Shown in pieces: positions 2,590 through 41,165 of a stretch of 64,000 bases of DNA. The notes below the pieces were generated by a model. It was given only the letters and a program-made list of their open reading frames with translations. It searched no databases and was not told the DNA's origin. The DNA is from Paucibacter sp. DJ2R-2. Its GTDB lineage: Bacteria > Pseudomonadota > Gammaproteobacteria > Burkholderiales > Burkholderiaceae_C. The first letter of the stretch is position 1. Each line of letters opens with the position of its first letter. The translations under genes and the position numbers were made by a program. The stretch lies in assembly GCF_025717675.1 (NCBI RefSeq), contig NZ_JAJIRT010000001.1:1178001-1242000 (forward strand), read 5' to 3'.

Positions 2590-3513
2590 TCAGGTCAACT
2601 CCACGAACAGGTCTTCGAGATTGAGCTCGGCCACGCTGAGCTCGCCATGGAGCAGCGGCACCTGGCCGGGAGCAAAGCGCAGCACGCAGCGCTCACGCCC
2701 GGCGGCCTCGGGCTGGCGGCGCAGCAGCTCGGCGCCGCTACCGGCCAGCAAGGCCTGGATCGCCGCGCTGGGGCCGCTGACCAGGCGCACCTCTTCGATC
2801 AAGCTGTCCAGCGGCGCCTGCACGGCGATGCGGCCGTTCTGCAGAAAGGCCAGGTTGAAGGCGACCCGCTCCAGATCGGACAGGATGTGGGTGGAGAACA
2901 CCACGGTCGTGCCGCGGTCCAGCACCTGGTCCACCAGCTCGCGCAGAAAGTCGCGCCGACCGACCGGGTCGAGGCTGGCGACCGGCTCGTCCAGCACCAG
3001 CAGATCGGGTTCATGCGCCAGCGCGCGGATGATGGACAGACGCTGCTGCTGGCCGCCCGAAAGGCGCGAGATCATCTGATCGCGTGGGATGTCCCAGCGT
3101 GACAGCAGACCCTCGACCTTGGCCTCGTTCCAGCGCGGGTAGAAACTCTTGAAGTAAGCCAGCAACTGGCGCGCCGTGAAGCCCTCGAACAGATCGCTGT
3201 GCTGCGGCACATAGCCGATGCGGGCGCGGGCGGCGTCGTCCAGCGCCGTGGCCGCCTGGCCAAACAGCTGCACCTGGCCGGCCTGTGGCTCGCGCAGGCC
3301 CAGCAAGGCTTCCAGCAAGGTGGTTTTGCCCGCGCCGTTGCGGCCCAGCAGACCGACCACCTGGCCCGGCAGCAGCTGCCAGCTCAGCGCTTGCAGCACC
3401 GGTTTGCTGCCGTAGCTCAGAGACACAGTGTCGAGTCGGGCCGTGGCGCCGGGCAGGTCTGCGGCCAGGCTGGTGGCGCCGGGCAGGGCCTGGGAAGAAA
3501 GGACTGCGCTCAT
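2590..3513 (-). CDS. ABC transporter ATP-binding protein (YtrB-like)
   Basis: A 307-residue ATPase with all the motifs of an active nucleotide-binding domain: Walker A GRNGAGKTT (57-65), Q-loop region near 104, signature LSGGQQQ (151-157), Walker B LLVLDEP (171-177) and H-loop histidine at 209. The last ~70 residues form a C-terminal extension typical of exporter-type ATPases. The chosen ATG at 3513 overlaps the TGA of the GntR gene (ATGA, 3510-3513), which indicates translational coupling. A longer open frame runs upstream to about 4170, but that part is the antisense/out-of-frame shadow of the regulator gene. It should energise the permease encoded directly downstream. Confidence 0.93.
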   Translation of the reverse strand: MSAVLSSQALPGATSLAADLPGATARLDTVSLSYGSKPVLQALSWQLLPGQVVGLLGRNGAGKTTLLEALLGLREPQAGQVQLFGQAATALDDAARARIGYVPQHSDLFEGFTARQLLAYFKSFYPRWNEAKVEGLLSRWDIPRDQMISRLSGGQQQRLSIIRALAHEPDLLVLDEPVASLDPVGRRDFLRELVDQVLDRGTTVVFSTHILSDLERVAFNLAFLQNGRIAVQAPLDSLIEEVRLVSGPSAAIQALLAGSGAELLRRQPEAAGRERCVLRFAPGQVPLLHGELSVAELNLEDLFVELT

Positions 3514-3923
3514 TGGGACTCTCCCTCTTTCAGAATGGTTTCGAACAAATGCAAGGCGGCGCTGGCGGGCAGCTCCAGCTGACGCGCCTGATCGGCCGCC
3601 TGGCCCAGCACGGGGCGCAGGAGCTCGATGCGCTCGGCCCGCGGCTGCGCCCGCTGGTGCTGGGCCGCCACCCGCATGGCCAGGCCGCGGCGGCGCTCCA
3701 GCAAGCCCTCGGCCTCGAGCAGGCTGTAGGCCTTGGAGACCGTCATCGGATGGACGGCCAGCTGCAAGGCCACCTCGCGCACCGAGGGAATCTCCTGGCC
3801 GGCCACGAGCTGCCCGCTGGCCACGCAGCGACGCAGCTGCTCGACCATCTGGCGATAGATGGGCTCGGTCGATCCGGTGTTGATGCGGAACGCGAACGGG
3901 CCGTGATTCTGGGACTGCGACAA
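3510..3923 (-). CDS. GntR-family transcriptional regulator, YtrA subfamily
   Basis: A 137-residue regulator: an N-terminal winged helix-turn-helix (about residues 10-80, with EPIYRQMVEQL and IPSVREVALQLAVHPMTVSK) followed by only a short C-terminal helix pair. This is the small YtrA architecture without a large effector domain. I place the start at a TTG (3921-3923) because GGAGG sits four bases upstream of it. The open frame extends to another TTG at 3980, but no ribosome site precedes that one. It is the first gene of the operon, and a perfect 8-bp inverted repeat at 3982-4003 lies about 60 bases upstream, consistent with autorepression. Confidence 0.9.
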   Translation of the reverse strand: MSQSQNHGPFAFRINTGSTEPIYRQMVEQLRRCVASGQLVAGQEIPSVREVALQLAVHPMTVSKAYSLLEAEGLLERRRGLAMRVAAQHQRAQPRAERIELLRPVLGQAADQARQLELPASAALHLFETILKEGESQ

Positions 3924-3981
3924 GTGACCTCCGCTGCTGGTGCTGCTGCTGCAAGCACGCCGGCAGGCCTTGCCTGTCAAC

Positions 3982-4003
3982 GTGTACTAGTATCGTAGTA
4001 CAC
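3982..4003. promoter_or_regulatory. Palindromic operator of the GntR/ABC operon
   Basis: GTGTACTA (3982-3989) and TAGTACAC (3996-4003) are perfect reverse complements separated by six bases. The palindrome is A/T-richer than its surroundings and sits just upstream of the GntR gene. GntR proteins of the YtrA type bind symmetric sites of this general form, so it is most likely the autoregulatory operator. Binding is inferred, not shown. Confidence 0.75.
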
Positions 4004-4162
4004 ATAGACGGAGGGGTGCAAGCGGATTTTTGCGGACGGCACGCGGCCCGGCAGCCCTCTGGCTGTGCATCGAGCTGCTGGGTTGCCGGGCCGTTGAGCC
4101 GGTGGCTCGCCATGGAAGTCGGCGACCCGAACCCTTCCGGCCCGGCTGCTTTGACTCGTCGC

Positions 4163-4184
4163 TTGTGCAATCAAGATTGCACAA
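4163..4184. promoter_or_regulatory. hipBA operator, 22-bp palindrome
   Basis: TTGTGCAATC (4163-4172) and GATTGCACAA (4175-4184) are perfect 10-bp reverse complements around a two-base centre. The site lies 28 bases before hipB. A related half site, GTGTAATCTTG, follows at 4197-4207. HipB-type antitoxins repress their own operon by binding such palindromes, so this is the likely autoregulatory site. Confidence 0.8.
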
Positions 4185-4205
4185 AAGTGGCGCTATGTGT
4201 AATCT
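4177..4205 (+). promoter_or_regulatory. Predicted hipBA promoter
   Basis: A -35-like TTGCAC (4177-4182) and a -10-like TAATCT (4200-4205) are separated by 17 bases. The -35 box lies inside the right arm of the palindrome, so repressor binding would block polymerase. Transcription would begin about at the hipB ATG (4212), and no Shine-Dalgarno sequence is present, which suggests a leaderless message. Prediction by eye only. Confidence 0.5.
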
Positions 4206-4211
4206 TGCTGA

Positions 4212-4538
4212 ATGCCTAAGGCCGCCAACTCCGTCAATAGCCTGCCCAGCTCGGTCCAAGTTTCCTTGGAAGTGCTGGGCAATCACCTGCGCTTGGGACG
4301 CAAACGCCGCAAAGAGTCTCTGCGGTCGTGGGCCTTGCGCATGGACGTGTCGGTGCCGACCTTGTCAGCGATGGAGAAGGGCGACCCTCGCGTCAGCATG
4401 GGGGTATACGCCACGGCGCTTTGGCTCATGGGGCGAGATGACGAATTGCGGGAGCTGGCTGCCCCAGAAAACGATGCGCAGGCCTTGGCGCAAGAGATGC
4501 TGGTGATTCAGAACGCGGGAAAGCGTCGCCATGGATGA
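4212..4538 (+). CDS. hipB: HipB-like antitoxin, helix-turn-helix regulator
   Basis: A 108-residue protein with an Xre/Cro-type helix-turn-helix at about residues 22-80 (LGNHLRLGRKRRKESLR, then SVPTLSAMEKGDPRVSMGVY). It precedes hipA and overlaps it by eight bases, the classic antitoxin-toxin order. HipB neutralises the HipA kinase and represses the operon through the palindrome at 4163-4184. The ATG at 4212 has no ribosome binding site upstream and lies about seven bases after a -10-like box, so translation may start on a leaderless transcript. The C-terminal ~25 residues after the DNA-binding domain are where toxin contact would be expected. Confidence 0.88.
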   Translation: MPKAANSVNSLPSSVQVSLEVLGNHLRLGRKRRKESLRSWALRMDVSVPTLSAMEKGDPRVSMGVYATALWLMGRDDELRELAAPENDAQALAQEMLVIQNAGKRRHG

Positions 4539-5772
4539 GGTTTACGTACCGCAGGACGCCATGAGCCTTTGGTGGCTGGGTCAGGGGCGCCAGTCTCCAC
4601 AACTGATTGGCCAGATCTTCCTGGCCGAAGGCAATCGCAAGGTCGGCTTGGAGTATTCGCCGATGTGGCTTCAGCAGGGTTTCGCATTGAGCGAGGACTT
4701 GCCCTTGGGCCGCGGGGTCTCCTTGCCCAAGGAACGCGACATGGCGGCCGGGGCGGTCGACGACGCCCGCCCGGACCGCTGGGGCGAGCGTGTGATTCGC
4801 AAGCTGTACCGGCCATCAAGGCTGTCGGTGTTGGAGTACCTCTACTTCGCCGGAGACGACCGCTTCGGCGCCTTGGGTGTTTCAAAGGCCGCCGATGCTT
4901 ACCAACCGAGCGGGGGCGGGGCTATGGCCAAGTTGGCCAACCTTGGCGAGATGGAGCAAGCCATTGCGGCTGTCCTGGCTGATGAAAAGCTCGATGAACG
5001 GCTGGTGCGGCTGATCAAGCCAGGCCCATCCTTTGGCGGTGCGCGCCCGAAGTCCTTGATCGAGATGGACGGGTGTCAGTGGGTGGTGAAATTCTCCGAG
5101 GGTGAAGACTTCGATACCGAGCTGGTCGAGCACGCCACCATGTGCCTGGCTGCGGAGTGTGGTTTGAATGTGGCTGAAACCCGTGCCTTGCAATTGGCGC
5201 GAGGCCATGCTGTCGCCATCAAGCGCTTCGACCGAGAGGGCGAACAACGGTCCCACGTGATTTCTGCGAATTCCGTGCTGCGCGCCAATGGGATGCCCAT
5301 GGGCTATCCCGAGTTGGCGCAAAGTCTGCGACGGATCGGCCGGCCTCAGGCCATCCGGGGGCAGCAAAAGGAGTTGTTCGAGCGGATGGTGTTCAACATC
5401 CTGATGGACAACACGGACGACCATGAGAAGAACCATGCATTCGTTCGCTCAAGCGATGGGTTCTACGACCTGTCCCCCGCCTATGACGTCGTGCCGTCCG
5501 TCCAGGGCCTGGGCCAGCAACAGCTCAGGGTGGGCAAGGCCGAGGCCGAGTCTTCGATGGAAAACGCCTTGACGGAGGTTCAGGCTTTTGGATTGAGCAA
5601 AGACGCTGCGCTCGCGTCCATCAAGAAGATCGCCGCCGCGGTCGACGGTTGGAAGGCGTTCTTTCAAGCTCTTGGTGTTGCCGACAGGGATCTCCAGCGG
5701 CTGGCGCAATACATCGATGGCCCGACGCTGAAGACGCAGCGGAGAGAGTTTCTGAAACGCCCGCAAAGCTAA
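4531..5772 (+). CDS. hipA: HipA-family serine/threonine kinase toxin
   Basis: A 413-residue full-length HipA. The N-terminal subdomain (about 15-120) contains DDARPDRWGERVI. The kinase core has the glycine-rich loop SFGGARPK (167-174), whose serine 167 matches the autophosphorylated serine 150 of E. coli HipA, and an ATP lysine in WVVKFS (K187). It also has the catalytic segment NTDDHEKN with D296 and N301, and the metal-binding D319 in LSPAYD. The spacing between D296, N301 and D319 equals that of D309, N314 and D332 in E. coli. HipA phosphorylates glutamyl-tRNA synthetase (other substrates in some homologues), stopping growth. All catalytic residues are present, so the toxin should be active and controlled by HipB. 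Confidence 0.93.
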   Translation: MDEVYVPQDAMSLWWLGQGRQSPQLIGQIFLAEGNRKVGLEYSPMWLQQGFALSEDLPLGRGVSLPKERDMAAGAVDDARPDRWGERVIRKLYRPSRLSVLEYLYFAGDDRFGALGVSKAADAYQPSGGGAMAKLANLGEMEQAIAAVLADEKLDERLVRLIKPGPSFGGARPKSLIEMDGCQWVVKFSEGEDFDTELVEHATMCLAAECGLNVAETRALQLARGHAVAIKRFDREGEQRSHVISANSVLRANGMPMGYPELAQSLRRIGRPQAIRGQQKELFERMVFNILMDNTDDHEKNHAFVRSSDGFYDLSPAYDVVPSVQGLGQQQLRVGKAEAESSMENALTEVQAFGLSKDAALASIKKIAAAVDGWKAFFQALGVADRDLQRLAQYIDGPTLKTQRREFLKRPQS

Positions 5773-5843
5773 ATTTCGAGGTGATGGCGCCCCGATTCAA
5801 AATGACTGGATTTCGACAGTCGCACGGAATTGAGGTCAGCTCA

Positions 5844-5893
5844 GAAAAGTGGGGTCAGAGTGCATTTTCAATGGCACTCTGACCCCACTTTTC
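5844..5893. repeat. 50-bp palindromic repeat, copy 1
   Basis: Two perfect 20-bp inverted arms (5844-5863 and 5874-5893), each containing GGGGTCAGAGTGC or its complement, flank the 10-base loop ATTTTCAATG. An identical copy lies at 5931-5980. It sits between the convergent ends of hipA and the acetyltransferase gene, as REP-type elements often do. Confidence 0.9.
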
Positions 5894-8707: not shown

Positions 8708-10699
8708 ATGCAATGCCACCCACTCGAACTCCTGGCTCCGGCCCGTGATGCCGACATCGGCATCGAAGCGATCAACCATGGCGCCGACGCCGTCTACATC
8801 GGCGGCCCCGGTTTCGGCGCGCGCGACAAGGCACCCAACAGCGTGGCCGACATCGAGCGACTGTGTCGCCATGCCCACCGCTTCGGCGCGCGCATCTTCG
8901 TGACCATGAACACCATCCTGCGCGATGACGAGTTGGAGGGCGCGCGCCGCCAGGCCTGGCAGCTGTATGAAGCCGGCGTGGATGCGCTGATCGTGCAAGA
9001 CATAGGCCTGCTGCAGCTGGACCTGCCGCCGCTGCAGCTGCACGCCAGCACCCAGACCGACATCCGCACGCCCGAGAAGGCTCGCTTTCTGCAAGACGTG
9101 GGCTTCTCGCAAATGGTGCTGGCGCGCGAGCTGGACCTGGGCCAGATCCGCGCCATCCGTGCCCAGGTGCAAGAGGCCACGCTGGAGTTCTTCATCCACG
9201 GCGCGCTCTGCGTGGCCTACAGCGGCCAATGCTTCATCAGCCATGCCCACAGCGGCCGCAGCGCCAACCGCGGCAATTGCTCGCAAGAATGCCGCCTGCC
9301 CTATACCGTGACCGATGCGCAAGGCCGCGTGATCGCGCACGACAAGCATGTGCTCAGCCTCAAGGACAACGACCAGAGCGCCAACTTGGAGCTGCTGGCC
9401 GATGCCGGCATCCGCAGCTTCAAGATCGAAGGCCGCTACAAGGACATGGCCACGGTCAAGAACGTCACCGCGCACTACCGCCTGCTGCTGGACGGGCTGA
9501 TGGAGCGCCGCAGCGACTACCGCCGCAGCAGCAGCGGGCGCTGCCGCTTCACCTTCACGCCGCAGCCCGAGCAGGGCTTCAACCGCGGCGGCACCGATTA
9601 CTTCGTCAACGGCCGCAAGATTGACATCGGCGCCTTCGACAGCCCCAAACACGCCGGCCTGCCGGTGGGCCATGTGGTCGCCGTGGCCGAGCAGCATTTC
9701 GATGTGGATACGGGTGACGCCACCATTGCCCTCAACAACGGCGACGCCCTCACCTGGTGGGACCGCCAGGGCGAACTGCAAGGCGTGCCCATCAACACGG
9801 TGGAGCCCCTGGGCGGCACCCGCTGGCGCGTGACGCCCAATCTGCACGGCAATCAGGAAGCCCAAAGCGTGACCGAGCTCAAAGACCTGCGCCGCGATCT
9901 GGCCCTGAGCCGCAACCGCGACATGGCCTGGGAGCGCCTGCTCGCCAAACCCTCTGCCGAACGCCGCATCGCCGTGGACCTGAGCCTGGCCCAGACCTGG
10001 GTGGACGGCCAGCCCGGCTTCGAGCTCAGCCTCAAAGACGAAGACGGCCACCGCGGCGTGGCCCGCGTCCAGCATGCCCACGAGCCCGCGCGCGATGCCA
10101 AGCAGGCCGACGCCACGCTCAAGGATCAGCTGAGCAAGCTGGGCACCACCATCTTCGAAACCCGGCGCGTGCGCCTGGCCTGGCGCGAGAGCTGTTTTCT
10201 CCCCGCCTCTTTGGTCAATCAGCTGCGCCGCGAAGCCGTCAGCGCACTCGAAGAAGCCCGCGCCCAGGCCTTCGAGCGCCTGCCCCGCGCCACGCCGGTG
10301 GAGCCGCCCGTGCCCTACCCCGAAGACACGCTCAGCTACCTGGCCAATGTCTACAACAGCCAGGCCGCCGCCTTCTACGCCAAGCATGGCGTCAGGCTCG
10401 TTGGCGCGGCTTACGAGAGCCACGAGGAGCTGGGCGAAGTCAGCCTCATGATCACCAAGCACTGCGTGCGCTGGAGCCTGAGCCTCTGCCCCAAGCAGGC
10501 CAAGGGCGTGACCGGCGTGCAAGGCACGGTGCGCGCCGAGCCCCTGGTGCTGCAGCATGGCGACGACCGCCTGACCCTGCGCTTCGACTGCAAGCCCTGC
10601 GAGATGCATGTGGTCGGCGCCATGCGCAAGAACGTGCTCAAGCAGCTGAAGGCCGAGCCGGTGACTTTCTATCGAACGAGGCCAGCGGCGAGGGTGTGA
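8708..10699 (+). CDS. rlhA: 23S rRNA C2501 5-hydroxylase RlhA (U32 family)
   Basis: A 663-residue protein that can be followed along nearly its whole length with E. coli RlhA (YdcP, about 650 residues). Shared segments include HGADAVYIGGPGFGAR, FVTMNTIL, LHASTQTDIRT, EFFIHGALCVAYSGQC and SFKIEGRYKDM. The N-terminal U32 domain is followed by the DUF3656-type C-terminal part that separates RlhA from the shorter TrhP. Cysteines in GALCVAYSGQC, GNCSQECRLPY, ITKHCVRWSLSLC and FDCKPCEMH are candidates for the iron-sulfur cluster of this family. RlhA makes 5-hydroxycytidine at C2501 in 23S rRNA using prephenate-dependent chemistry. The ATG at 8708 aligns with the E. coli start; a few extra codons upstream are also open. 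Confidence 0.93.
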   Translation: MQCHPLELLAPARDADIGIEAINHGADAVYIGGPGFGARDKAPNSVADIERLCRHAHRFGARIFVTMNTILRDDELEGARRQAWQLYEAGVDALIVQDIGLLQLDLPPLQLHASTQTDIRTPEKARFLQDVGFSQMVLARELDLGQIRAIRAQVQEATLEFFIHGALCVAYSGQCFISHAHSGRSANRGNCSQECRLPYTVTDAQGRVIAHDKHVLSLKDNDQSANLELLADAGIRSFKIEGRYKDMATVKNVTAHYRLLLDGLMERRSDYRRSSSGRCRFTFTPQPEQGFNRGGTDYFVNGRKIDIGAFDSPKHAGLPVGHVVAVAEQHFDVDTGDATIALNNGDALTWWDRQGELQGVPINTVEPLGGTRWRVTPNLHGNQEAQSVTELKDLRRDLALSRNRDMAWERLLAKPSAERRIAVDLSLAQTWVDGQPGFELSLKDEDGHRGVARVQHAHEPARDAKQADATLKDQLSKLGTTIFETRRVRLAWRESCFLPASLVNQLRREAVSALEEARAQAFERLPRATPVEPPVPYPEDTLSYLANVYNSQAAAFYAKHGVRLVGAAYESHEELGEVSLMITKHCVRWSLSLCPKQAKGVTGVQGTVRAEPLVLQHGDDRLTLRFDCKPCEMHVVGAMRKNVLKQLKAEPVTFYRTRPAARV

Positions 10700-10775
10700 A
10701 GAACGAAAGAGCGGCGATGGGCAGGCTCCGAAGCAGGCATGATCCGCGCCCGAGGCAATCAGCGCTTTCGCACCC

Positions 10776-11837
10776 ATGCTCAAACTTCTGAAAACCCTGA
10801 TCGGCACCACGAAAGACAAAGCTGCAGTGCGAGCTGACTCCGATGCGGAGACAGATGCGCAGGCGCCGCCGCCAGCTGTGATCCACGCACCGGGCGCTGA
10901 ACCTTTCGATCTGTCGGCAGCGCTGATCGATGCTGGCGGCTTCCCGCTCACGGATTGGGACGCGGTGAATCGCTGGATTGCCAACGTGCCAACCGAGGCC
11001 GCCAAGGCGCAGGCCTGGGCCGCTTGCGAACAGGCTTGGCTGCAGCACCTCTGCCGCGCCCTGGGGCCGGCCTACCGCTTGCGATCACAAGGCTCGGCCC
11101 TGCTGATCTCCACCCTGCCCGAGCATGTGGCGGCAGCGACGCTGAGCTTCGTGAGCAAGACCGTGCAGCGGATCGTCCATCTGCTGCAGGGGCTGGCTGC
11201 AGCGCCAGAGTGGGGTCATGACATCCTGATCGTCTTCGATGATGACGACAGCTACTACCGTTATGTCGCGCACTACTACCCCGAGGCCGGAGAGTTTGCG
11301 GCCAGCAGCGGCATGTACATCGACGGAGGCTGCGGCCACTTTGTGACGGTGAAAGCCGACCTTCGCTCGGTGGAGCCGGTCATCGCGCATGAGCTGACCC
11401 ATGCCTGCCTGAGCCACTTGCCCATCCCTGCGTGGCTGAACGAAGGCCTGGCCGTCAACACGGAACTGCGGCTGTGCCCTCCACCACAAGCCCCAAGCAA
11501 CCCTTGGGATTTGCACGCCCGTCATCTGAAGTTTTGGGGGGCTGCGGAGATTCAAGAGTTCTGGTCCGGCAAATCCTTTCTCCGGAACGACGATGGGAAC
11601 GAGCTGTCCTACGACCTGGCCAAAGTGCTGGTGTCTCAGTTCGCCGCCGATTGGCAAACGTTCCGCCAGTTTGCGCTCGCTGCCAACTTAGCGGATGGGG
11701 CTGCGGCAGCGGCTCAGCTTCACCTGGGCATCGATTTAGGAGCGGCGGTCTGCGCGATTCTGGAGCGGGAGCCGGACGCATCGTGGGCACCGAGACCGGA
11801 GGCATGGGGGGAGGCACCCGAGCGAGGTTCGTTTTGA
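10776..11837 (+). CDS. HExxH zincin-like protein of unknown function
   Basis: A 353-residue soluble protein with no signal peptide. The clear feature is HELTHACLSHLPIPAWLNEGLAV at about residues 208-230: HExxH followed by a glutamate in NEG, the gluzincin pattern seen in peptidase MA-like proteins. Upstream lies an acidic stretch (IVFDDDDSYYRYV) and a segment that could be the beta-strand edge of the active site. It is therefore a probable metalloprotease or metalloprotease relative, but the substrate is unknown. It stands 76 bases after rlhA on the same strand; no shared function is evident. Confidence 0.75.
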   Translation: MLKLLKTLIGTTKDKAAVRADSDAETDAQAPPPAVIHAPGAEPFDLSAALIDAGGFPLTDWDAVNRWIANVPTEAAKAQAWAACEQAWLQHLCRALGPAYRLRSQGSALLISTLPEHVAAATLSFVSKTVQRIVHLLQGLAAAPEWGHDILIVFDDDDSYYRYVAHYYPEAGEFAASSGMYIDGGCGHFVTVKADLRSVEPVIAHELTHACLSHLPIPAWLNEGLAVNTELRLCPPPQAPSNPWDLHARHLKFWGAAEIQEFWSGKSFLRNDDGNELSYDLAKVLVSQFAADWQTFRQFALAANLADGAAAAAQLHLGIDLGAAVCAILEREPDASWAPRPEAWGEAPERGSF

Positions 11838-29176: not shown

Positions 29177-32152
<2,976 letters not shown>

Positions 32153-32425
32153 GGTGGGCGGCAGCTGTACGGGAAAACCCACCATCATAGGTCGGGCGGG
32201 TCAAAACAGCCCCTTTGCGCTCTGGGCGGGCGACTCCAGGCCGGAAATAGCCCGATTGCGTTCGTCTTTCACGCCTAGGGTTAACCCCTTGTCGGCGCCG
32301 GCGGCGATTCAATCGCTCGCGCCCGCAGTTCGTCGCACTGCCATGGCCGATGGCCCCCGGGTTTTCGATACTGAGTCCAACGAAGCAGCAATGGGCCGCT
32401 TCGCAAACCGCAAGGAAGCCACATC

Positions 32426-32904: not shown

Positions 32905-34128
32905 GTGAGCGAAGAATCCCGCAAGCGCAGATCATGGCTTGACGGCTTCATGGCCTATGCCCTGCCCACAGGGCTGGCCGAAGCCCAGGTGCGCGACAAC
33001 ATCGTCGTGCTCGACCAGCTGCTCTACGCCCTGTGGAATCTGGGCGAAAACCTGGTGTTCGCCTGGACCCCACAGCCACAAGGCCTGAGCCTGCTGGTCG
33101 CACCTCACCCCCTGCTGACCGAATTCACGCAGGCCGCCGGCACGGCCGCCGCCGAGGTGCAGCGCCGGGCCCAGCTGCTGGACGAGTTGCTGGCCCACCA
33201 GAACCACCTGAGTGCCGAGCAGTTCGCGCAGACCGCGACCGAGCTGGGCATCACGCCTCAGCACATCAGCCTGCCTTTCGCTCCTGACGCGGGCCTGGGC
33301 CTGGATTTGGTGGCGGCCATCATTGCCCGTTACGGCATTCGCCTGGTGGAAGACCGGGCGGTGATCCTGTTCGACGCGGTCGGCTTCTCCCTACTCAGCC
33401 CGCTGCAGCAGGTGGTGCAGCTGAACAGTCTGTCCTGCTCGGTCAATGCGGCCTATGCCAAGCTGCTGGACCGCGAGATCAACATCAACTTCGCCCGCAC
33501 CACCACCGGCGACGGCTTCTACATCTGGAACCGCATGCGCGGCATCGAGGCCAATGTCGAGCTCTACCAGCTGCTGCAGTTCATCCTGGCTGACAACGCC
33601 CTGGCCCGCGAGCGCGCCAGCCGACCCGACTCGGTGCCACTGCTGCGCGCAGCCTTCCATGTCGGCTCGCACTATGAGTTCTACCAATCCGAGGGCCTGA
33701 ACCCGACTTCCTTCAGCTATTTGGTCGGCCAAGTCACGATCGAGCTGGCGCGCATGATCGACCGCGCCCTGCCGGGCCAGATCCTGCTGGGCAAGTTCAA
33801 CACCTTGATGCGCGACGAGCACAGCGGCGAGGAGCAGCGCATCGCCAGCATCGACTTCGTCGAGCGCACCCGCCGCCCGCTCAAGGCCTTGAATGGCCTG
33901 AGCCTGGCCGGCGCCGAGATCGACGAAATCGCCTGCTACCTGACCGGCCGCCGCAACGCCCAGGGCGAGTTCGGCATCAGCGAGTTCGAGATCCTCGACA
34001 AGCATGGCCGGGCCCACCGCGTCTACAACGCCAAGATCAACATCCACCGGCGCGCCGGGGAGCCGATTTACCTGGGCCTGCGCGAGGAAGACCTGCCCGC
34101 ATTCCCTGCACCTGTTACGGTTTGTTAA
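32905..34128 (+). CDS. Protein with class III nucleotidyl-cyclase-like domain
   Basis: A 407-residue protein, start GTG 32905 with GGAGG seven bases upstream. Residues about 150-340 resemble a class III cyclase fold. The first metal aspartate lies in VILFDAVGFS, and TTGDGFYIWNRM has the second aspartate in GDG. Residues around 235-345 carry a long insert-like middle. The N-terminal 140 residues have no known domain. It may be a divergent adenylate/guanylate cyclase or a non-catalytic relative; it lacks the obvious N-x-x-x-R transition-state pair seen in the next gene. It lies 62 bases before the cyclase-ATPase-TPR gene on the same strand, so they probably act together. Confidence 0.65.
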   Translation: MSEESRKRRSWLDGFMAYALPTGLAEAQVRDNIVVLDQLLYALWNLGENLVFAWTPQPQGLSLLVAPHPLLTEFTQAAGTAAAEVQRRAQLLDELLAHQNHLSAEQFAQTATELGITPQHISLPFAPDAGLGLDLVAAIIARYGIRLVEDRAVILFDAVGFSLLSPLQQVVQLNSLSCSVNAAYAKLLDREININFARTTTGDGFYIWNRMRGIEANVELYQLLQFILADNALARERASRPDSVPLLRAAFHVGSHYEFYQSEGLNPTSFSYLVGQVTIELARMIDRALPGQILLGKFNTLMRDEHSGEEQRIASIDFVERTRRPLKALNGLSLAGAEIDEIACYLTGRRNAQGEFGISEFEILDKHGRAHRVYNAKINIHRRAGEPIYLGLREEDLPAFPAPVTVC

Positions 34129-34190
34129 CTACGGATCATCCTCAAGCGGTAGGATGGCCTGAACCCGCGACGTCGAAGAGCGCCCAGGCC

Positions 34191-37100
34191 ATGACCGACA
34201 CCCTCGATCGCGCGCCCGCGCCACCAGCACTGGGCCTGCGACGCCATCTCACCATCCTGTTTTCGGACCTGTCGGAATCCACCCGGCTGTCCGATGCCAT
34301 GGAGGCAGAGCATTACGCCGCCATGCTGGCCGAGGTGCGCGGCCTGTACCAGAACCTGATCGCCAAACATGGCGGCACGGTGGTGCGCATCCAGGGTGAC
34401 GGCGTGCTGGCCATCTTCGGCCACCCGCAAGCGCGCGAAGACGACGGCCGGCGTGCGACCGAGGCTGCCCTGGAACTGCACAAGGCGGTTCGCCTGATGC
34501 AACCCCAGTCGGCCGCGGCCGCCTGGCCTGGCGCGCAGGGACTGAGCCTGCACACCGGCATCCACGCCGGCATGGTGCTGATCGAGGAAGGCGACGCCAT
34601 GCGCGGCCGCTTCGAACTGCTCGGCAACACACCCAATGTCGCCGCTCGACTGGCCGACGAGGCCTGCGCGGACGAGATCCTGGTCAGCGCCGAAACCCTG
34701 GGCCCGCTGCGCCCCTTTTTCCAGACCAGCGAGCGCCGCTTGGTGCCGCTCAAAGGCCGCGCCACGCCGCTGGCGGTCTACAGCATCCTGGGCCAGGTCA
34801 GCATCGGCCGGCGCTTCGAGGCCAGCAAGCGCCGCGGCCTGGCGCCTTTTGTCGGCCGCGCCACCGAGCTCGCCTTGATGGAGCAGCGCCTCGATCAAGC
34901 CTGCGCCGGCCAGCCGCAATGGCTGAGCCTGCGCGCCAGCGCCGGCGTGGGCAAGACCCGGCTGACCGAGGAGTTCCTGCGCCGCGCCGCCGATCGCGAC
35001 TGCCGCGTGCTGCGCGGTTACTGCGAGAGCTACCTCAGCGCCGAGCCCTTGCAGCCCTATCTGCAAATGCTGCGCACCCTGCAGCGCCAAGGCTCCGCCG
35101 AGGCCGACGCTGTGCTGCGAGGCCCGGCCAAAGAACGGCAGGAGGCCGTCCTGCAGCTGCTGCTCCAGCTGGCCAGCCAGGGGCCGCTGCTCTTGCTGAT
35201 CGACGATCTGCAATGGGCCGATGACGCCAGCCTGGCCCTGCTGCACCGCCTGCGCGCCGAGGCTGAGCGTCGGGCCCTGCCATTGATGCTGCTGAGCGCC
35301 ACGCGGCCCGCGGCGGTGACGGAAACCCCGGCCCTGCTGCTGCCCATCCACCACGGCCACGAGGCCGCCGAGGCCCTGCACCACCACGAACTGCTGCCGC
35401 TCAGCGAGGAGGAAGCAGGTCTGGCCATCGCCCAGCTGCTGCCCGGCACCGACCCCTTCATCAGTGCCGAGGTGCAGCGCCATGCCGGCGGCAACCCTCT
35501 GTTCATCGAAGAGCTCTGCCACGCCCTGGCCCACCAGCGCGGCCATGCCGGCCTGCGTGCCGCCGAGGAACAAGCGCCGTCGACCCTGAATCCGGCCAGT
35601 GGCGGCCATGCCTGGCTGGCCGCGCTGATCGAATCGCGGGTGGCACGCCTGCCACCGGCCCAGGCCCAGCTGCTGCGTGTGGCGGCGGTGATCGGCTCGG
35701 TCATTCCAACCTGGCTGTTCGAGCGCATCAGCGGCTGCTGCGAGAAAGACCCGGTGGTGCTGGAGCTGGCCGAGCTGGACTTCATCTTCCCGGCCGAACA
35801 ACCAGGCCTGCTGCGCTTCAAGCACGGCATCACCCGCGACGTCATCTACGACAGCACCGGCCTGCACGAGCGCCAGGCTCTGCACCGCCACATCACCGCC
35901 GAGCTGCGCGCCCAGCTGGTCCTGGGCGGCCAGGAGCCCGCGCACGAGCTGCTGGCCTACCACGGCGGCGCTGCCGGCCAGTGGCAAGAGGCCGCCCACC
36001 ATGCCGAGCAAGCGGGCGACCAGGCCCTGGCCAGCTCGGCCCTGGACCGGGCCAAAAAGCAATACCGCGCCGCACTGGCCGCCCTGGAGCACCTGCCACC
36101 CAGCGAGGAGGTGCACCAACGCTGGATCGCCATCGCCCAGCGCTTCGGCATGGCCTGCGTGTTCGACGCTTCAAGAGCCGACCTGCGCGTGCTGCAGCAC
36201 GCCACCGGCCTGGCCGCCCTCAGCGGCGACCCCGCGGCCATGGCGCGCGCCCAGTACTGGCTCGGTTATGTACGCTACGCCCTGGGCGAGGCCCGGGCCG
36301 GTCTGCAGCTCTGCATTCGCAGCGTCGATGTGGCGCTGACCGCCCGCGACCAAGGCTTGCTGGCCCAAATGCCCGGCACCTTGGGACAGATCCGCGCCGC
36401 CACGGCCGAGTACGGGCCGGCCCTTCAATTGCTCGATCAAGCCATTGCTCAGCTGCGCCCGCGCCCAAACGGCCACGTCTCGCGCCGCCCGCCCATAGGC
36501 CTGGCCTACTCCCTGGCCTGCCGCGCCTATGTGCTGGGCGACCAGGGCCATTTCCGCGCCGCCGAAGTGGCCTTCGACGAAGCGCTGAGTCTGATGCAAG
36601 GCAGCAACCATGCCGTCGAGGCTTCCATCCAGGGCTGGCGCGCCGCCGTGCTGCTCTGGCAAGGGCGCTGGGCCGAGGCCCAAGTCTGCGCCGCCGAGAC
36701 CCACCGCATCGGCGCCCAGGTGCGCAGCCTCTTCACCTTTGCCATGGGCCACGCAGCCGGAGCCTACGGCGCCTGGATGGGCGGCGGCTGCCCCCTGGCG
36801 CGCCAGGCCCTGGAAGAAGCCGTGGCCTGGCTGACCCCGCGCGGCGGCGGCCTGTTCAGCTCACTCAATCACGGCTGGTTGGCCGAAATTCTGGTGCAGC
36901 AAGGCGAGTCGAACCTGGCTCGACAACACATGGCCCTGGCCCTACGCCGTGGCCGGCAAAGCGACTGGATCGGCGTGGCCATGGCCTACCGCGCCGCCGC
37001 ACGCCTGGCGCAAAGCCAGGGGCAGCCCGAGCGGGTGACGCATTACCTGGCCGCCGCCCAAGCCGTGACGAAACGCCGTGGCTCCATGCACGAACGCGCC

Positions 37101-37250
37101 GTGACCGAACTCTGCGCCGCCGAGCTGGCCTTGCAGCGCGGGGAATCTGGGCGGGCCCGAGGCCTGCTGGACGAGGCGGAGGCCGCCTTCTTCACCATGG
37201 GCATGGATTGGCATTTGGCGAAGGCGCGGGCGTTGCGGCAGCAGCTTTGA
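34191..37250 (+). CDS. Class III cyclase-AAA ATPase-TPR signalling protein
   Basis: A 1019-residue multidomain protein. The N-terminal cyclase domain (about 15-200) has metal aspartates in ILFSDLSES and IQGDGVLAIFG, and the transition-state Asn/Arg in NTPNVAARL. An AAA/STAND-type ATPase (about 225-560) follows, with Walker A ASAGVGKTRL and Walker B LLLIDDLQWADD. The rest is alpha-helical TPR-like repeats, including EVAFDEALSLMQ. This is the layout of ATP-driven regulatory cyclases in which the ATPase-TPR part senses a partner. The ATG at 34191 is chosen; the frame is open 23 codons earlier. It is convergent with the DyP-P450 gene, with ~55 bases between stops. Confidence 0.88.
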   Translation: MTDTLDRAPAPPALGLRRHLTILFSDLSESTRLSDAMEAEHYAAMLAEVRGLYQNLIAKHGGTVVRIQGDGVLAIFGHPQAREDDGRRATEAALELHKAVRLMQPQSAAAAWPGAQGLSLHTGIHAGMVLIEEGDAMRGRFELLGNTPNVAARLADEACADEILVSAETLGPLRPFFQTSERRLVPLKGRATPLAVYSILGQVSIGRRFEASKRRGLAPFVGRATELALMEQRLDQACAGQPQWLSLRASAGVGKTRLTEEFLRRAADRDCRVLRGYCESYLSAEPLQPYLQMLRTLQRQGSAEADAVLRGPAKERQEAVLQLLLQLASQGPLLLLIDDLQWADDASLALLHRLRAEAERRALPLMLLSATRPAAVTETPALLLPIHHGHEAAEALHHHELLPLSEEEAGLAIAQLLPGTDPFISAEVQRHAGGNPLFIEELCHALAHQRGHAGLRAAEEQAPSTLNPASGGHAWLAALIESRVARLPPAQAQLLRVAAVIGSVIPTWLFERISGCCEKDPVVLELAELDFIFPAEQPGLLRFKHGITRDVIYDSTGLHERQALHRHITAELRAQLVLGGQEPAHELLAYHGGAAGQWQEAAHHAEQAGDQALASSALDRAKKQYRAALAALEHLPPSEEVHQRWIAIAQRFGMACVFDASRADLRVLQHATGLAALSGDPAAMARAQYWLGYVRYALGEARAGLQLCIRSVDVALTARDQGLLAQMPGTLGQIRAATAEYGPALQLLDQAIAQLRPRPNGHVSRRPPIGLAYSLACRAYVLGDQGHFRAAEVAFDEALSLMQGSNHAVEASIQGWRAAVLLWQGRWAEAQVCAAETHRIGAQVRSLFTFAMGHAAGAYGAWMGGGCPLARQALEEAVAWLTPRGGGLFSSLNHGWLAEILVQQGESNLARQHMALALRRGRQSDWIGVAMAYRAAARLAQSQGQPERVTHYLAAAQAVTKRRGSMHERAVTELCAAELALQRGESGRARGLLDEAEAAFFTMGMDWHLAKARALRQQL

Positions 37251-37306: not shown

Positions 37307-40300
37307 TCACCCCAGCTGCACCGCCAACACCGTCGGCGAAGGCGTCGCCCGCAGCACACCGGCTTCCAGCAGGCCGGCCGAGACGCCCAGCATCACGCCC
37401 ACGGCCATGGCGTAGCCGGGGCAGGCATGCAGGGGGGCGGGGTCGACGGCGTCATAACGGTCGCCGCCGAACATGATGGTGTGGTCACCGGGGTTCTGGG
37501 CCGCGCAAGAGACGATGCCGACGATGATCTTGTCACCCTCTTGCACCTCGACACCGCGCAGACGGTGCGTCACGCGGGCGCGGCGCCAGACGGCGGCGGG
37601 TACCGGCTGACGCATCATGGTGGCGAGCAGGGTGGGCCGCAGATGGGCCACGGCACGCGCGTACACCTGATCGGCGGCAGCGAGCGCGCCGCCCAGCCAA
37701 TCCTGCTGCAGATCCCACAGTTTCTTGGTGACCACCCAGGCGGCAAGGCTGGAGACCTGGTTGCCATGCACGGTGGGCGGGAAGCCGAGCATGATGCCGG
37801 CCAGGGTACGCGGGATGATGTCGGGGTCGAGCTTGGCGGCTTCGCTCAGCGAGTCCTTGATGGCCTGGCTGATGGCCGGCAAGGCGGGGTTGGTCTCCAG
37901 CCACTCGCGCACGGCGCGCTGCAAGCCCTGGCCCTTGGCGCTGGCCACCTGCTCGACCACAGGGCCGGGTTGCGGGCCGAAGACGTAGCGCGATACGGCG
38001 AAGAAGTCGCGCGGGCAGCGCGGCGCACTGTGGGCGGCGCCGGGCACATAGCCGGTGCCCAGCATCTGCTGATCGTTGGGCAGGCCGAACCAGACGGTGC
38101 AGAGCTTGTCCAGCACCACTTCGGAAAGCTTCTCAATGTCCAGCAAGGCTTCGCGCTGGCCCAGCTTCTGGTTGCCTTCTTTCAGGGCCGCTAGGTAGGC
38201 GCGCGCCACGCGGTAGCTGGCGGCAAAGGCCTCGGGCTCGCTGATGCTTTCGATGGCCGTGTTGATGGCCGGCGCCTGCTCGCGGTGGCCGCTGTCCTCG
38301 TCCATGCCGAGGTAGCCCAGACCGATGGAGCGCTGCATGCGCTCGCCGTAGCCGCGCACCGAGTAGCGTTGCTGCGTGTCGCGGAAGACTTCGAGCACGG
38401 CCGCGGCCTCCCCGACCAGCACGCCGTAGGCCGTGCGCAGCACGCCACCGGGTTGGGCGCGCACATAGGCCCAGGCAGCATCGCGGCTGCTGGAATCTTC
38501 CAACCATTGCTGCCAGGCGGCGGCGTTGTCCAGGGCTGGTGCGCGCTGCGGCGCCAGGCCGGCGGCCGGCAGGGGCTGCTCCACCAGGGCCGGCAGATGA
38601 CGCAGAGCGGGCAGGGAAGGCACGAAGAAGTAAGCGCCCCATTGCAGCTCGACAAAAGGTTGTTCGCCCAGGTCCAGGTGCACGCTGCGCGGGCCGGCTT
38701 CGGTCTGCTCCTCAAAACGGTAGACGCGCGGCTTGCCCTGGGTGGCCACGGCCAGGAAGGGGTCGGCCTGCTCGGCCAGGCCGCCGCTGGCATTGCCACC
38801 GGCGATCCAGCGCTGCAGGGTTTCGAACTGCTCGGCCAGATGGGCGTTGTAGGCCATGAAGATCAGGCCGCGGTCCTGGTCTTTCTCATCTGGCTCACTG
38901 GCCGGTTGAGCCAGGCTGCCGGTGGTGGCCGGGCCGTAGGACATGCCCCGGCGCAGCACGCGCGGCACCACGCCCTCGCGCGGGTTGACGCGGCGGATGT
39001 GCGCGTGGAAGGGGCAGGCGCTGCCCGCTGAATCCTGCTGGTAGGTGAAGGCATTGCTGGGGCCGCTGCCGGGCGCCGCCAGCGGCTCACCATCCAGGCT
39101 GCGGCCCATCATCTTGGCCAGCACGCGCTGCGGGTCCAGGCCGTGGATCTGGGCCTGCTCCTGCACGCGACGCTGCAGGCGCCCGACATGCTGGCGCAGC
39201 TTGCGCACGACCAGGAAGCTGCCCAGATCAAGCAGGGCATCGGCCTTCTCGGGCACGGCGTGGCGGTCGCGCGAGGTTGGGAAGCCCAACACCACCTCGC
39301 CGCGCGGCACCGCGTCCGACCAGGGCTTGCCCGGGGCCGTGGGCGGGTTGGCCAGCGGGCCGCCGGCGCGCTGCGGGTCCACCTGGGGTTGGCTGATGCC
39401 GTCGATGAAGCCGAAGTTCTCGCGCGTGGCGCCGCTGATCGGGTCGATATTGCGGCGCATGTCCTGCACGGCCAGCACCTGCAGGCCGCTGTCGCGCTCC
39501 AGGCTGGCGATTTCGGCATCCACCGTGGCTGCATCCACACCGGCACCGAAGCGCAGCTGCACCACCAGGTGCACGGCATTGAGGTCCACACGCGCCGCCA
39601 GGCTGGCGCACTCGGCCGCGCCGCGCGGCCAGTTGCGCTCGGGCAGCTTCCAGTAACGCGGGTGGTTGTGGCGCAGATCGCCGAGCACGCCGGCGCGCGC
39701 CTCCATGCCCTCCTGGAACGCTTGCGGGAAGCGCGCCAGGCGCGAGGCCGGCAGGCCCAGGGCGCGCAGGCCGGCCAGACTCAGGGCGACATTGCGGTAG
39801 AAGCCGCCGACCGGGGCTTCACCGAGCAGGGTCTGGGCCTCGCTGCTGGGTTTGAACTGCTGGCTGAGCCAGGCCACCGCCTGGCTGCGATTGGTCACGC
39901 GCAGCAGCACCAGGGCGCCACCGACCAGATCGGGGTAGGCGCTGAGCATGCCGCCCTGGATGTCGGCATCACGGTAGGCCAGGGCGCGCGGCTTGACCTC
40001 GGGCTGGGGCGGCACGGTCTCGAACCAGGCCAGCATCTTGTAATGCGTGGCGCGCAAGGCATAGCCGGCGGCCAGCAGGGGGTTGGCCTGGGCCTGCTCA
40101 GGCGTGGGCGGCAGCAGGGGGAAGCGCTTGAGGGTGTCCAGGCCGCGCAGCTCGAACAGCACATCGCGGCTGGCGCGCAGCAGGCAATACCCATCCGGCG
40201 CGCTGGGCAGAAAGTAGCGCTCCAGCGAGTACAGCGCCGCCAGCGCCGGCAGGCCGCGCACCGCCATGTCGAAGGCCGCACGCGGGTCGCTGGGCAGGGG

Positions 40301-40900
40301 CTTGCTCTCGCCCGGCAGGGGGCGGCGCAGCCGGGTCACAGCCAGATCACCGCCCTCGGGATGCAGGCGGCTTTGGCGCTCCAGCTCGGCCAGGTAGTCG
40401 TGGTCGCCGCAGCTGCGGCCCGATTCCAGGTAGAGGAAATCGGCCGAGAACTCGTTGGCGCGCACCCACTCGATATAGCGCTCAAACGAAGTTTCGCGCG
40501 AGAGACGGTAGCCCTCGCAGTGGCAGAGCATCAGGTCCAGCATGCTGCCCAGGTCATCCCAGATGACGCGCATATAGGGTTCCCAGCCGCCGTCGAAACA
40601 GACATTGAGCAGGAATTTGTGCGGCGTGCCTTCGGCGTCGATGCCCGGGCGCGGCTCGACGATGGCCCAGCGAAAGGAATGGACGATGCGGAAGCGGCTG
40701 ACCACATCGGTGAACAGCTCGGGCGTCTCGCTCGACTCGCGCGCCGACTGGCGCAGGGCGTTCAGTGTCTTGAGCACGCGGCGCAGGCGCTCGAGGTGGG
40801 TGATGGTCTCGAAGGCGTTGACGAAACCGGGCTTGATCGGCGTGAGCAGGCACAGATCGGTGATGCCCTGCAACTGGGTGTCCTGGCGACTGGTTGGCAT
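37307..40900 (-). CDS. DyP-type peroxidase fused to cytochrome-P450-like domain
   Basis: A 1197-residue protein with three parts. Residues 1-~390 are uncharacterised (contains FDGGWEPYMRVIWDD). Residues ~395-770 are a DyP-type heme peroxidase: GFIDGISQP (497-505) with the catalytic aspartate, CPFHAHIRRVNPR (629-641) with the proximal histidine, and DRGLIFMAYNAHLAEQFE. Residues ~800-1197 look like a P450: a helix with IMLGFPPTVHGN in the I-helix place and a C-terminal heme loop HACPGYAMAVGVMLG with the thiolate cysteine near 1160. The usual ExxR is TMMR (1094-1097) and the FGxG part is missing. Start ATG 40900 has CAGGGAG eight bases upstream. Such a fusion resembles fungal dioxygenase-P450 enzymes in logic. 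No ferredoxin or reductase gene is adjacent, so the P450 domain may work with peroxide. Confidence 0.85.
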   Translation of the reverse strand: MPTSRQDTQLQGITDLCLLTPIKPGFVNAFETITHLERLRRVLKTLNALRQSARESSETPELFTDVVSRFRIVHSFRWAIVEPRPGIDAEGTPHKFLLNVCFDGGWEPYMRVIWDDLGSMLDLMLCHCEGYRLSRETSFERYIEWVRANEFSADFLYLESGRSCGDHDYLAELERQSRLHPEGGDLAVTRLRRPLPGESKPLPSDPRAAFDMAVRGLPALAALYSLERYFLPSAPDGYCLLRASRDVLFELRGLDTLKRFPLLPPTPEQAQANPLLAAGYALRATHYKMLAWFETVPPQPEVKPRALAYRDADIQGGMLSAYPDLVGGALVLLRVTNRSQAVAWLSQQFKPSSEAQTLLGEAPVGGFYRNVALSLAGLRALGLPASRLARFPQAFQEGMEARAGVLGDLRHNHPRYWKLPERNWPRGAAECASLAARVDLNAVHLVVQLRFGAGVDAATVDAEIASLERDSGLQVLAVQDMRRNIDPISGATRENFGFIDGISQPQVDPQRAGGPLANPPTAPGKPWSDAVPRGEVVLGFPTSRDRHAVPEKADALLDLGSFLVVRKLRQHVGRLQRRVQEQAQIHGLDPQRVLAKMMGRSLDGEPLAAPGSGPSNAFTYQQDSAGSACPFHAHIRRVNPREGVVPRVLRRGMSYGPATTGSLAQPASEPDEKDQDRGLIFMAYNAHLAEQFETLQRWIAGGNASGGLAEQADPFLAVATQGKPRVYRFEEQTEAGPRSVHLDLGEQPFVELQWGAYFFVPSLPALRHLPALVEQPLPAAGLAPQRAPALDNAAAWQQWLEDSSSRDAAWAYVRAQPGGVLRTAYGVLVGEAAAVLEVFRDTQQRYSVRGYGERMQRSIGLGYLGMDEDSGHREQAPAINTAIESISEPEAFAASYRVARAYLAALKEGNQKLGQREALLDIEKLSEVVLDKLCTVWFGLPNDQQMLGTGYVPGAAHSAPRCPRDFFAVSRYVFGPQPGPVVEQVASAKGQGLQRAVREWLETNPALPAISQAIKDSLSEAAKLDPDIIPRTLAGIMLGFPPTVHGNQVSSLAAWVVTKKLWDLQQDWLGGALAAADQVYARAVAHLRPTLLATMMRQPVPAAVWRRARVTHRLRGVEVQEGDKIIVGIVSCAAQNPGDHTIMFGGDRYDAVDPAPLHACPGYAMAVGVMLGVSAGLLEAGVLRATPSPTVLAVQLG

Positions 40901-41165
40901 GCGCACTCCCTGAAAAATCTGCGAGGTTGGTGGCTGCGCACGACAGGCCGATGACAAGCCCCGGGCGCGCCGCAGACCATAGGGTCTGGCCGCGCTTCTG
41001 TCCTCGGGATTTCTAAGGAGAGGCGCCTCCTTTCGTCGCAGCGACTGGCGATTCGCGCGCCCAAAGCCGCAGCTCATCGCCTGACGCTGGCGAGCCCGGG
41101 CCGCAATGCCGACACTTCAATCATCGAAACAGAGGAGCCCCCTCACACCCAAGGAGTTATGCATC

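Follow-up and report, generated by a model that had tools for sequence, protein, structure and literature searches.

A conserved DyP peroxidase-P450-type fusion protein of Paucibacter and its convergent nucleotide cyclase gene

The fusion gene and its domains

The stretch of DNA analysed here, 64,000 nucleotides of the genome of Paucibacter sp. DJ2R-2 (contig NZ_JAJIRT010000001.1, positions 1,178,001 to 1,242,000; hereafter the window), carries at 37307-40900 on its minus strand an uninterrupted ATG-to-stop frame of 1197 amino acids, in which an N-terminal ABM-like domain, a DyP-type peroxidase domain and a C-terminal domain of P450 fold follow one another (Table 1). The sequence GGGAG is found just 5' of the ATG; the frame stays open in the 5' direction as far as another ATG at 41077, and nine full-length or nearly full-length matches within the genus start at residues 1-7 relative to the ATG used. 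Counting the query, 18 genomes of the genus were compared, and 10 of them have the gene. A contig scan with the family alignment yielded 66 loci, consisting of 65 fusion relatives, some of them cut by contig ends, and one that is related to DyP only (L086); both scan patterns lie within the DyP part, so that relatives without DyP could not be found in this way. The hosts include Roseateles, Pelomonas, Paucibacter, Rubrivivax, Variovorax, Ideonella, Piscinibacter and Bradyrhizobium, among others, and a mobilizable plasmid of Sphingopyxis carries a shortened relative that lacks the N-terminal domain (L020). None of the 67 compared loci (L020-L086) gave a match spread over several frames. The single 1197-residue protein claimed in the first-pass annotation is thus confirmed by the open frame and by relatives matching in one frame, and a frameshift or assembly artefact joining two genes was ruled out, since the same one-frame architecture is found across many genomes. 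The fusion of DyP with a P450-type domain is real and conserved. Conservation was read from 61 rows (the query and 60 relatives, near copies retained), with the truncated L021, L047, L066, L075 and L080, the short plasmid copy L020 and L086 omitted. The protein is predicted to be cytoplasmic, no signal peptide being recognised by eye.

Table 1. Features of the fusion gene and of its convergent neighbour in the window
Feature	Position	Strand	Remarks
Whole fusion gene	37307..40900	minus	1197 aa; order ABM-like / DyP / P450-fold
N-terminal ABM-like alpha+beta domain, res. 10-165	40406..40873	minus	motif FDGGWEPYMRVIW
Helical linker region, res. 166-311	39968..40405	minus	least conserved stretch
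DyP-type peroxidase domain, res. 312-771	38588..39967	minus	Pfam, NCBIfam and PDB matches
Asp500 of GXXDG	39401..39403	minus	Asp 59/61, Glu 2/61
His634, DyP proximal heme ligand	38999..39001	minus	61/61
Arg650-Arg651, DyP distal Arg	38948..38953	minus	61/61 and 60/61
P450-fold domain, res. 786-1197	37310..38545	minus	family profile and predicted fold
I-helix Pro1042-Thr1043	37772..37777	minus	Pro at acid position of AGx(D/E)T, 60/61
Arg1106	37583..37585	minus	61/61; probable heme-propionate Arg (presumed role)
HAC: His1158 and heme-thiolate Cys1160	37421..37429	minus	both 61/61
Class III nucleotide cyclase + AAA_16 ATPase + TPR, convergent neighbour	34122..37250	plus	start codon uncertain

The peroxidase domain is recognised by Pfam Dyp_perox_C (E 7e-9, 36 bits against a cut-off of 20), while DyP_N remains below its cut-off (11.8 against 27.5 bits) and NCBIfam TIGR01413 matches with E 6e-27, yet with 94.8 bits lies below its cut-off of 100.5. 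DyPs in the PDB match the fusion protein down to E 1.7e-29, and Asp500, His634 and Arg650 line up with the corresponding residues of the Deinococcus radiodurans DyP (DrDyP). These matches and the conserved Asp, His and Arg bear out the DyP-type peroxidase first proposed from the window alone, and the residues suggest an active peroxidase centre.

The C-terminal domain gives no P450 match in a single-sequence Pfam scan even at E 1. When a 58-row family profile was compared with the PDB, all 53 matches at E<=1 were P450s (best E 0.0013), most of them so named in their entries; the predicted structure of the C-terminal part is a P450 fold (the prediction covered residues 1-312 and 772-1197). The P450-like domain proposed earlier is therefore supported by both the profile comparison and the structure prediction that had been suggested as checks. 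The heme-cysteine loop HACPGYAMA is present as described, with His1158, Cys1160 and Gly1162 in 61/61 rows. The earlier reading of ExxR as TMMR also holds, glutamate being found at position 1094 in none of the 61 rows, query included. No FGxG was found in the domain, in agreement with the first reading; a conserved FGG, 14 residues ahead of the histidine, resembles instead the meander F-x-x-D-R, with Arg1148 in 55 rows. In the I-helix the acid position occupied by proline was located by profile alignment with EryK (2jjn); threonine follows the proline in 56 of 61 rows. Arg1106 and His1158 presumably hold the heme propionates, as in P450cam. To judge from these residues, the domain has retained those that hold the heme and lost those that activate O2, like reductase-free P450s. 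Over 36 non-redundant rows its mean identity is 0.40, against 0.46 for the DyP domain.

The first reading had also stated that no ferredoxin or reductase gene is nearby, which stands within a limited search: two ferredoxin patterns run over 30-50 kb of the window gave two matches, both read as shadow frames, and no reductase family was found among the 20 window open reading frames, a subset, that were scanned with Pfam.

The N-terminal region, formerly left as uncharacterised, is now assigned to an ABM-like module that recurs elsewhere. Its residues Asp65, Asp103, Tyr109, Arg111 and Asp122 are each kept in 61/61 rows. A sequence comparison of the domain with the PDB gave seven scattered matches at E<=5, the best at 0.09 and none convincing, and the comparison of folds gave weak matches only.

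The convergent cyclase-ATPase gene

The ABM-like module, the cyclase gene standing tail to tail with the fusion gene in the window and the split versions of the system described below had been overlooked in the first-pass annotation. From the 66 family loci (L020-L085), eight with less than 1.4 kb of downstream sequence were set aside, including L062, which has a match. Among the 58 remaining, 53 have a cyclase homologue inside the fetched flank of the fusion gene (tblastn E<=1e-10), the five without one being L028, L032, L035, L039 and L040; in 38 of the 53 the homologue is convergent and within about 300 bp downstream, and in two it lies upstream. Across 52 aligned cyclase rows, query included, Asp49 and Asp93 are invariant, Asn172 is found in 51 and Arg176 in 36 (His in 14), and the Walker A lysine is invariant. 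The four positions correspond to the two metal-binding Asp, the Asn and the Arg of class III catalysis. Similarities among the fusion proteins and among the cyclases of 31 non-redundant loci agree with a Mantel r of 0.88 (0 of 2000 permutations as high), as expected if fusion and cyclase are inherited as a pair.

A Crp/Fnr regulator gene immediately precedes the fusion gene in L065, L074, L077 and L084 and the cyclase gene of the Sphingopyxis plasmid (L020, 13360-14049), and it lies at a greater distance in L054, L057, L068 and L071, an association that is suggestive, not general. PycC models match the cyclase domain (best 8e-17) and none matches the fusion protein, the effector being outside this search; in a check for anti-phage defence, PADLOC had no model for the fusion protein.

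In two genomes of the genus, one without the fusion gene (G005) and one with it (G007), an operon of the N-acetylgalactosamine (GalNAc) type converges on the cyclase gene (L088, L092); it encodes a GatZ/KbaZ-like protein, a DeoR regulator, a NagA-like amidohydrolase and an MFS transporter. The window also encodes a 1003-aa UvrA paralogue (29177-32188), and a UvrA-like gene flanks the cyclase in the same two genomes.

Modular relatives with P450, catalase-related and lipase partners

The ABM-like profile was searched in 398 Proteobacteria, of which 26 genomes matched, and in 369 genomes of the class, of which six matched, two of them repeats. This gave 31 loci, two of which hold window-type frames, one being that of the window and the other a frame of 1599 aa (G168:C105) with the length and match positions of L061. 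The other 29 (L130, L163-L180, L190-L199) were read individually. All 29 have a DyP, encoded either together with the ABM-like domain or by a gene close by, as judged with a DyP model built from the window family only. A P450 is present in 15 and a catalase-related protein in nine, and no locus has both. The chance of such a lack of overlap would be 0.0002 if the loci were independent, which they are not, since several come from a single genus. Mapped onto the DyP tree, the presence of a P450 requires seven changes and that of a catalase-related protein five.

In seven loci (L163-L165, L191, L194-L196; four from one genus) the parts are fused in the order P450-ABM-DyP, and in the midpoint-rooted tree a branch with 100/99 support separates the window type from the P450-ABM-DyP clade. 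The same parts fused in two orders argue that the modules work together. They also exist as wholly or partly separate genes in L129, L130, L131, L166, L168, L176, L177, L178, L197 and L198. The split or otherwise fused P450s number 17 (15 from the ABM loci, with those of L129 and L131); Pfam recognises a P450 in all 11 that were scanned, the set outside that scan being L166, L168, L176, L195, L196 and L197. In the 15 that were aligned, two near copies being omitted, ExxR is kept in 15/15, strict FGxG in 11 and proline at the acid position in 13, which is consistent with a loss of the I-helix acid before that of ExxR. A strict P450 model from the window family alone finds P450s in 8 of the 29 ABM loci, and a broader model finds the 15. 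Over the 398 Proteobacteria the P450 profile matched six genomes, with two window-type frames and four weak matches to P450 frames of ordinary size.

A profile of the nine catalase-related sequences gave 32 PDB matches at E<=0.1. They are headed by 3e4w and the allene oxide synthase-lipoxygenase protein, and all others are catalases. Pfam Catalase is above cut-off for the proteins of L174 and L169 and below it for those of L170, L171, L172, L173, L192 and L132; the catalase-related proteins other than those of L174 and L169 were linked through phmmer and a hidden Markov model. Beside one window-type fusion (L038) lies a weak match to the catalase model (E 2e-4), which looks like a secreted catalase-family protein.

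Lipase-type modules accompany a minority of relatives. A C-terminal SGNH module is fused in 15 of the 60 relatives, with GDS in 15/15 and GGGND in 12/15, and in L054 and L074 an SGNH homologue is encoded by a separate downstream gene. The gene row of L131 comprises cyclase, P450-ABM, DyP and a patatin-like phospholipase. The SGNH and patatin modules, in this minority of relatives, suggest a lipid substrate.

Of the 29 ABM loci, six contain a cyclase homologue; four of these six belong to a single genus and match weakly (E 5e-5 to 2e-7). L129 and L131 have a homologue as well. The homologue of L129 (9061-12393) is a cyclase-ATPase with an N-terminal SAM domain, next to the split P450 and DyP. 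In L179 a tyrosinase and a protein of the endonuclease/phosphatase family (5058-5873 and 9560-11002) flank the ABM and DyP genes, and in L180 a RoxA-like diheme cytochrome (3385-4779) adjoins the ABM-like and DyP genes.

Proposed function and comparison with known systems

The fusion protein may be a cytoplasmic double-haem enzyme that acts as a peroxide relay, probably on lipids, and is tied to cyclic-nucleotide signalling, a reading to which we give an even chance. The DyP centre, aided by the ABM-like domain, would make or activate a peroxide or hydroperoxide of the substrate, for which a lipid such as a free fatty acid is the likeliest candidate; the P450-fold centre, with its heme thiolate kept, would rearrange or use that peroxide without a reductase. 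The lipid substrate could be released, in some relatives, by the SGNH hydrolase of the fusion or by a lipase encoded next to it, and the cyclase-ATPase-TPR protein would probably sense the product, the substrate or the inducing stress and give rise to a cyclic-nucleotide signal. We infer the binding of both hemes, the relay chemistry, the lipid substrate and the signalling alike. The relay is favoured because the O2-activation residues are lost and because the exchange of P450 for catalase-related proteins parallels hydroperoxide chemistry.

Several observations weigh against it. DyPs are known to reduce H2O2 and are not known to insert O2, and no DyP converting fatty acids to hydroperoxides was found among the literature matches listed. 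The scan of 11 P450 loci with two patterns gave one plausible motif of a plant-type ferredoxin, at L164, in a frame of 420 aa that lies two genes and about 2 kb upstream. Four of the 18 genus genomes (G001, G003, G005, G006; the query is among the 18) have the cyclase and lack the fusion, and in G007 and G012 the two genes are about 17 kb apart. Neither P450 nor catalase-like protein is present in five of the 29 ABM loci, the tyrosinase of L179 and the RoxA-like cytochrome of L180 each partner ABM-DyP once, and the loci share descent, so that counts are not independent. One catalase-related protein searched alone had no PDB match at E 0.01; in the nine sequences the Thr-His hallmark of hydroperoxide-metabolising catalase-like proteins was not seen at its presumed place, where alanine or glutamine precedes the histidine or the histidine itself is missing. 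The lipase, besides being confined to a minority, exceeds the Pfam cut-off in one of the three fused modules scanned.

The same parts could instead serve an H2O2-driven oxidation of aromatic or other non-lipid small molecules, in which the DyP would take one electron from a phenol-like substrate, the P450 would act on it as a peroxygenase and the cyclase would have no role beyond regulating the genes. This would be typical DyP chemistry, a P450 without the I-helix acid suits a peroxygenase, and the tyrosinase of L179 and a GMC oxidoreductase at L170 are in line with it; the replacement of the P450 by catalase-related proteins would be hard to square with an H2O2-fed peroxygenase, and the lipase modules, where present, indicate lipids. 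We consider this explanation possible, if somewhat unlikely. The loss of ExxR in all 61 rows, the missing FGxG and the frequency of the nearby cyclase homologue (53/58) would also suit a P450-fold domain that is a non-enzymatic heme sensor or scaffold, reporting peroxide or gas to the cyclase. The heme-side residues are nevertheless invariant and the I-helix conserved, the domain is only slightly less conserved than DyP, and split P450s in the same place retain ExxR, so we consider a sensor quite improbable. That a plain DyP acquired its P450 tail by accident or through mis-assembly, in keeping with a P450 part unseen by Pfam, has a practically negligible probability given the predicted P450 fold and a one-frame architecture repeated in dozens of genomes, including Burkholderiales and Bradyrhizobium.

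The peroxide relay on lipids may be extended, tentatively and with an unlikely overall outcome, to a DyP-based, oxylipin-like bacterial pathway unrelated to lipoxygenase and cyclooxygenase, in which a lipase, ABM-DyP and an O2-independent P450 or catalase-related isomerase would act in succession and a dedicated cyclase-STAND ATPase would read the product. ABM-DyP may in that pathway be a new dioxygenase or hydroperoxide former, and the whole, if true, would be a bacterial parallel to prostanoid-to-cAMP signalling.

The analogy with PpoA and linoleate diol synthases drawn in the first-pass annotation finds support at the level of mechanism and not at that of homology. As in those fungal enzymes and in dioxygenase-allene oxide synthase (DOX-AOS) fusions, a peroxidase-type heme domain is followed by a C-terminal P450. 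In the fungal fusions the first domain is a member of the peroxidase-cyclooxygenase superfamily. The bacterial protein has a DyP in this place, together with an additional ABM-like domain, and its gene lies close to that of a nucleotide cyclase; homology between its first half and that of fungal dioxygenase-P450 (DOX-CYP) proteins was ruled out, the domain being a DyP and not of cyclooxygenase type. The analogy gains weight from the catalase-related proteins in the place of the P450 and from the fused or adjacent lipases of a minority, and the fusion may be a bacterial counterpart of the fungal double-haem enzymes of lipid signalling. The fungal fusions are described as diheme, with a self-sufficient P450 in which HxC is intact and the heme loop otherwise incomplete (PMC13049297). 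In the oomycete CYP5619, a P450 is fused to a peroxidase/dioxygenase and has a highly degenerate heme motif; unlike the fusion here it keeps EXXR, and no DyP is mentioned in that account (PMC5919972). Both P450s of the CYP74 clan and catalase-related proteins are reported to perform hydroperoxide isomerase/lyase chemistry (PMC10813956). The two kinds likewise occupy the same place beside ABM-DyP; the partner here is a DyP, not a lipoxygenase, and the Thr-His hallmark is not seen.

The fusion of DyP and P450 had been thought undescribed, and none was found among the literature matches listed, subscription journals being mostly outside the search. The link of DyP to an O2-independent type of P450, through fusions in two orders, and to a catalase-related protein that can take the place of the P450 offers a concrete, testable chemistry. 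If the cyclase reads the product, a bacterial lipid-mediator pathway would have been assembled from parts that differ from the eukaryotic ones. The physiological substrates of bacterial DyPs are raised as an open question in the account of the Deinococcus radiodurans enzyme (8re2/8re3), which is the nearest solved DyP by sequence, with Asp, His and Arg aligned (PMC10820274). Its solved chain consists of DyP alone, without an ABM-like or P450 part.

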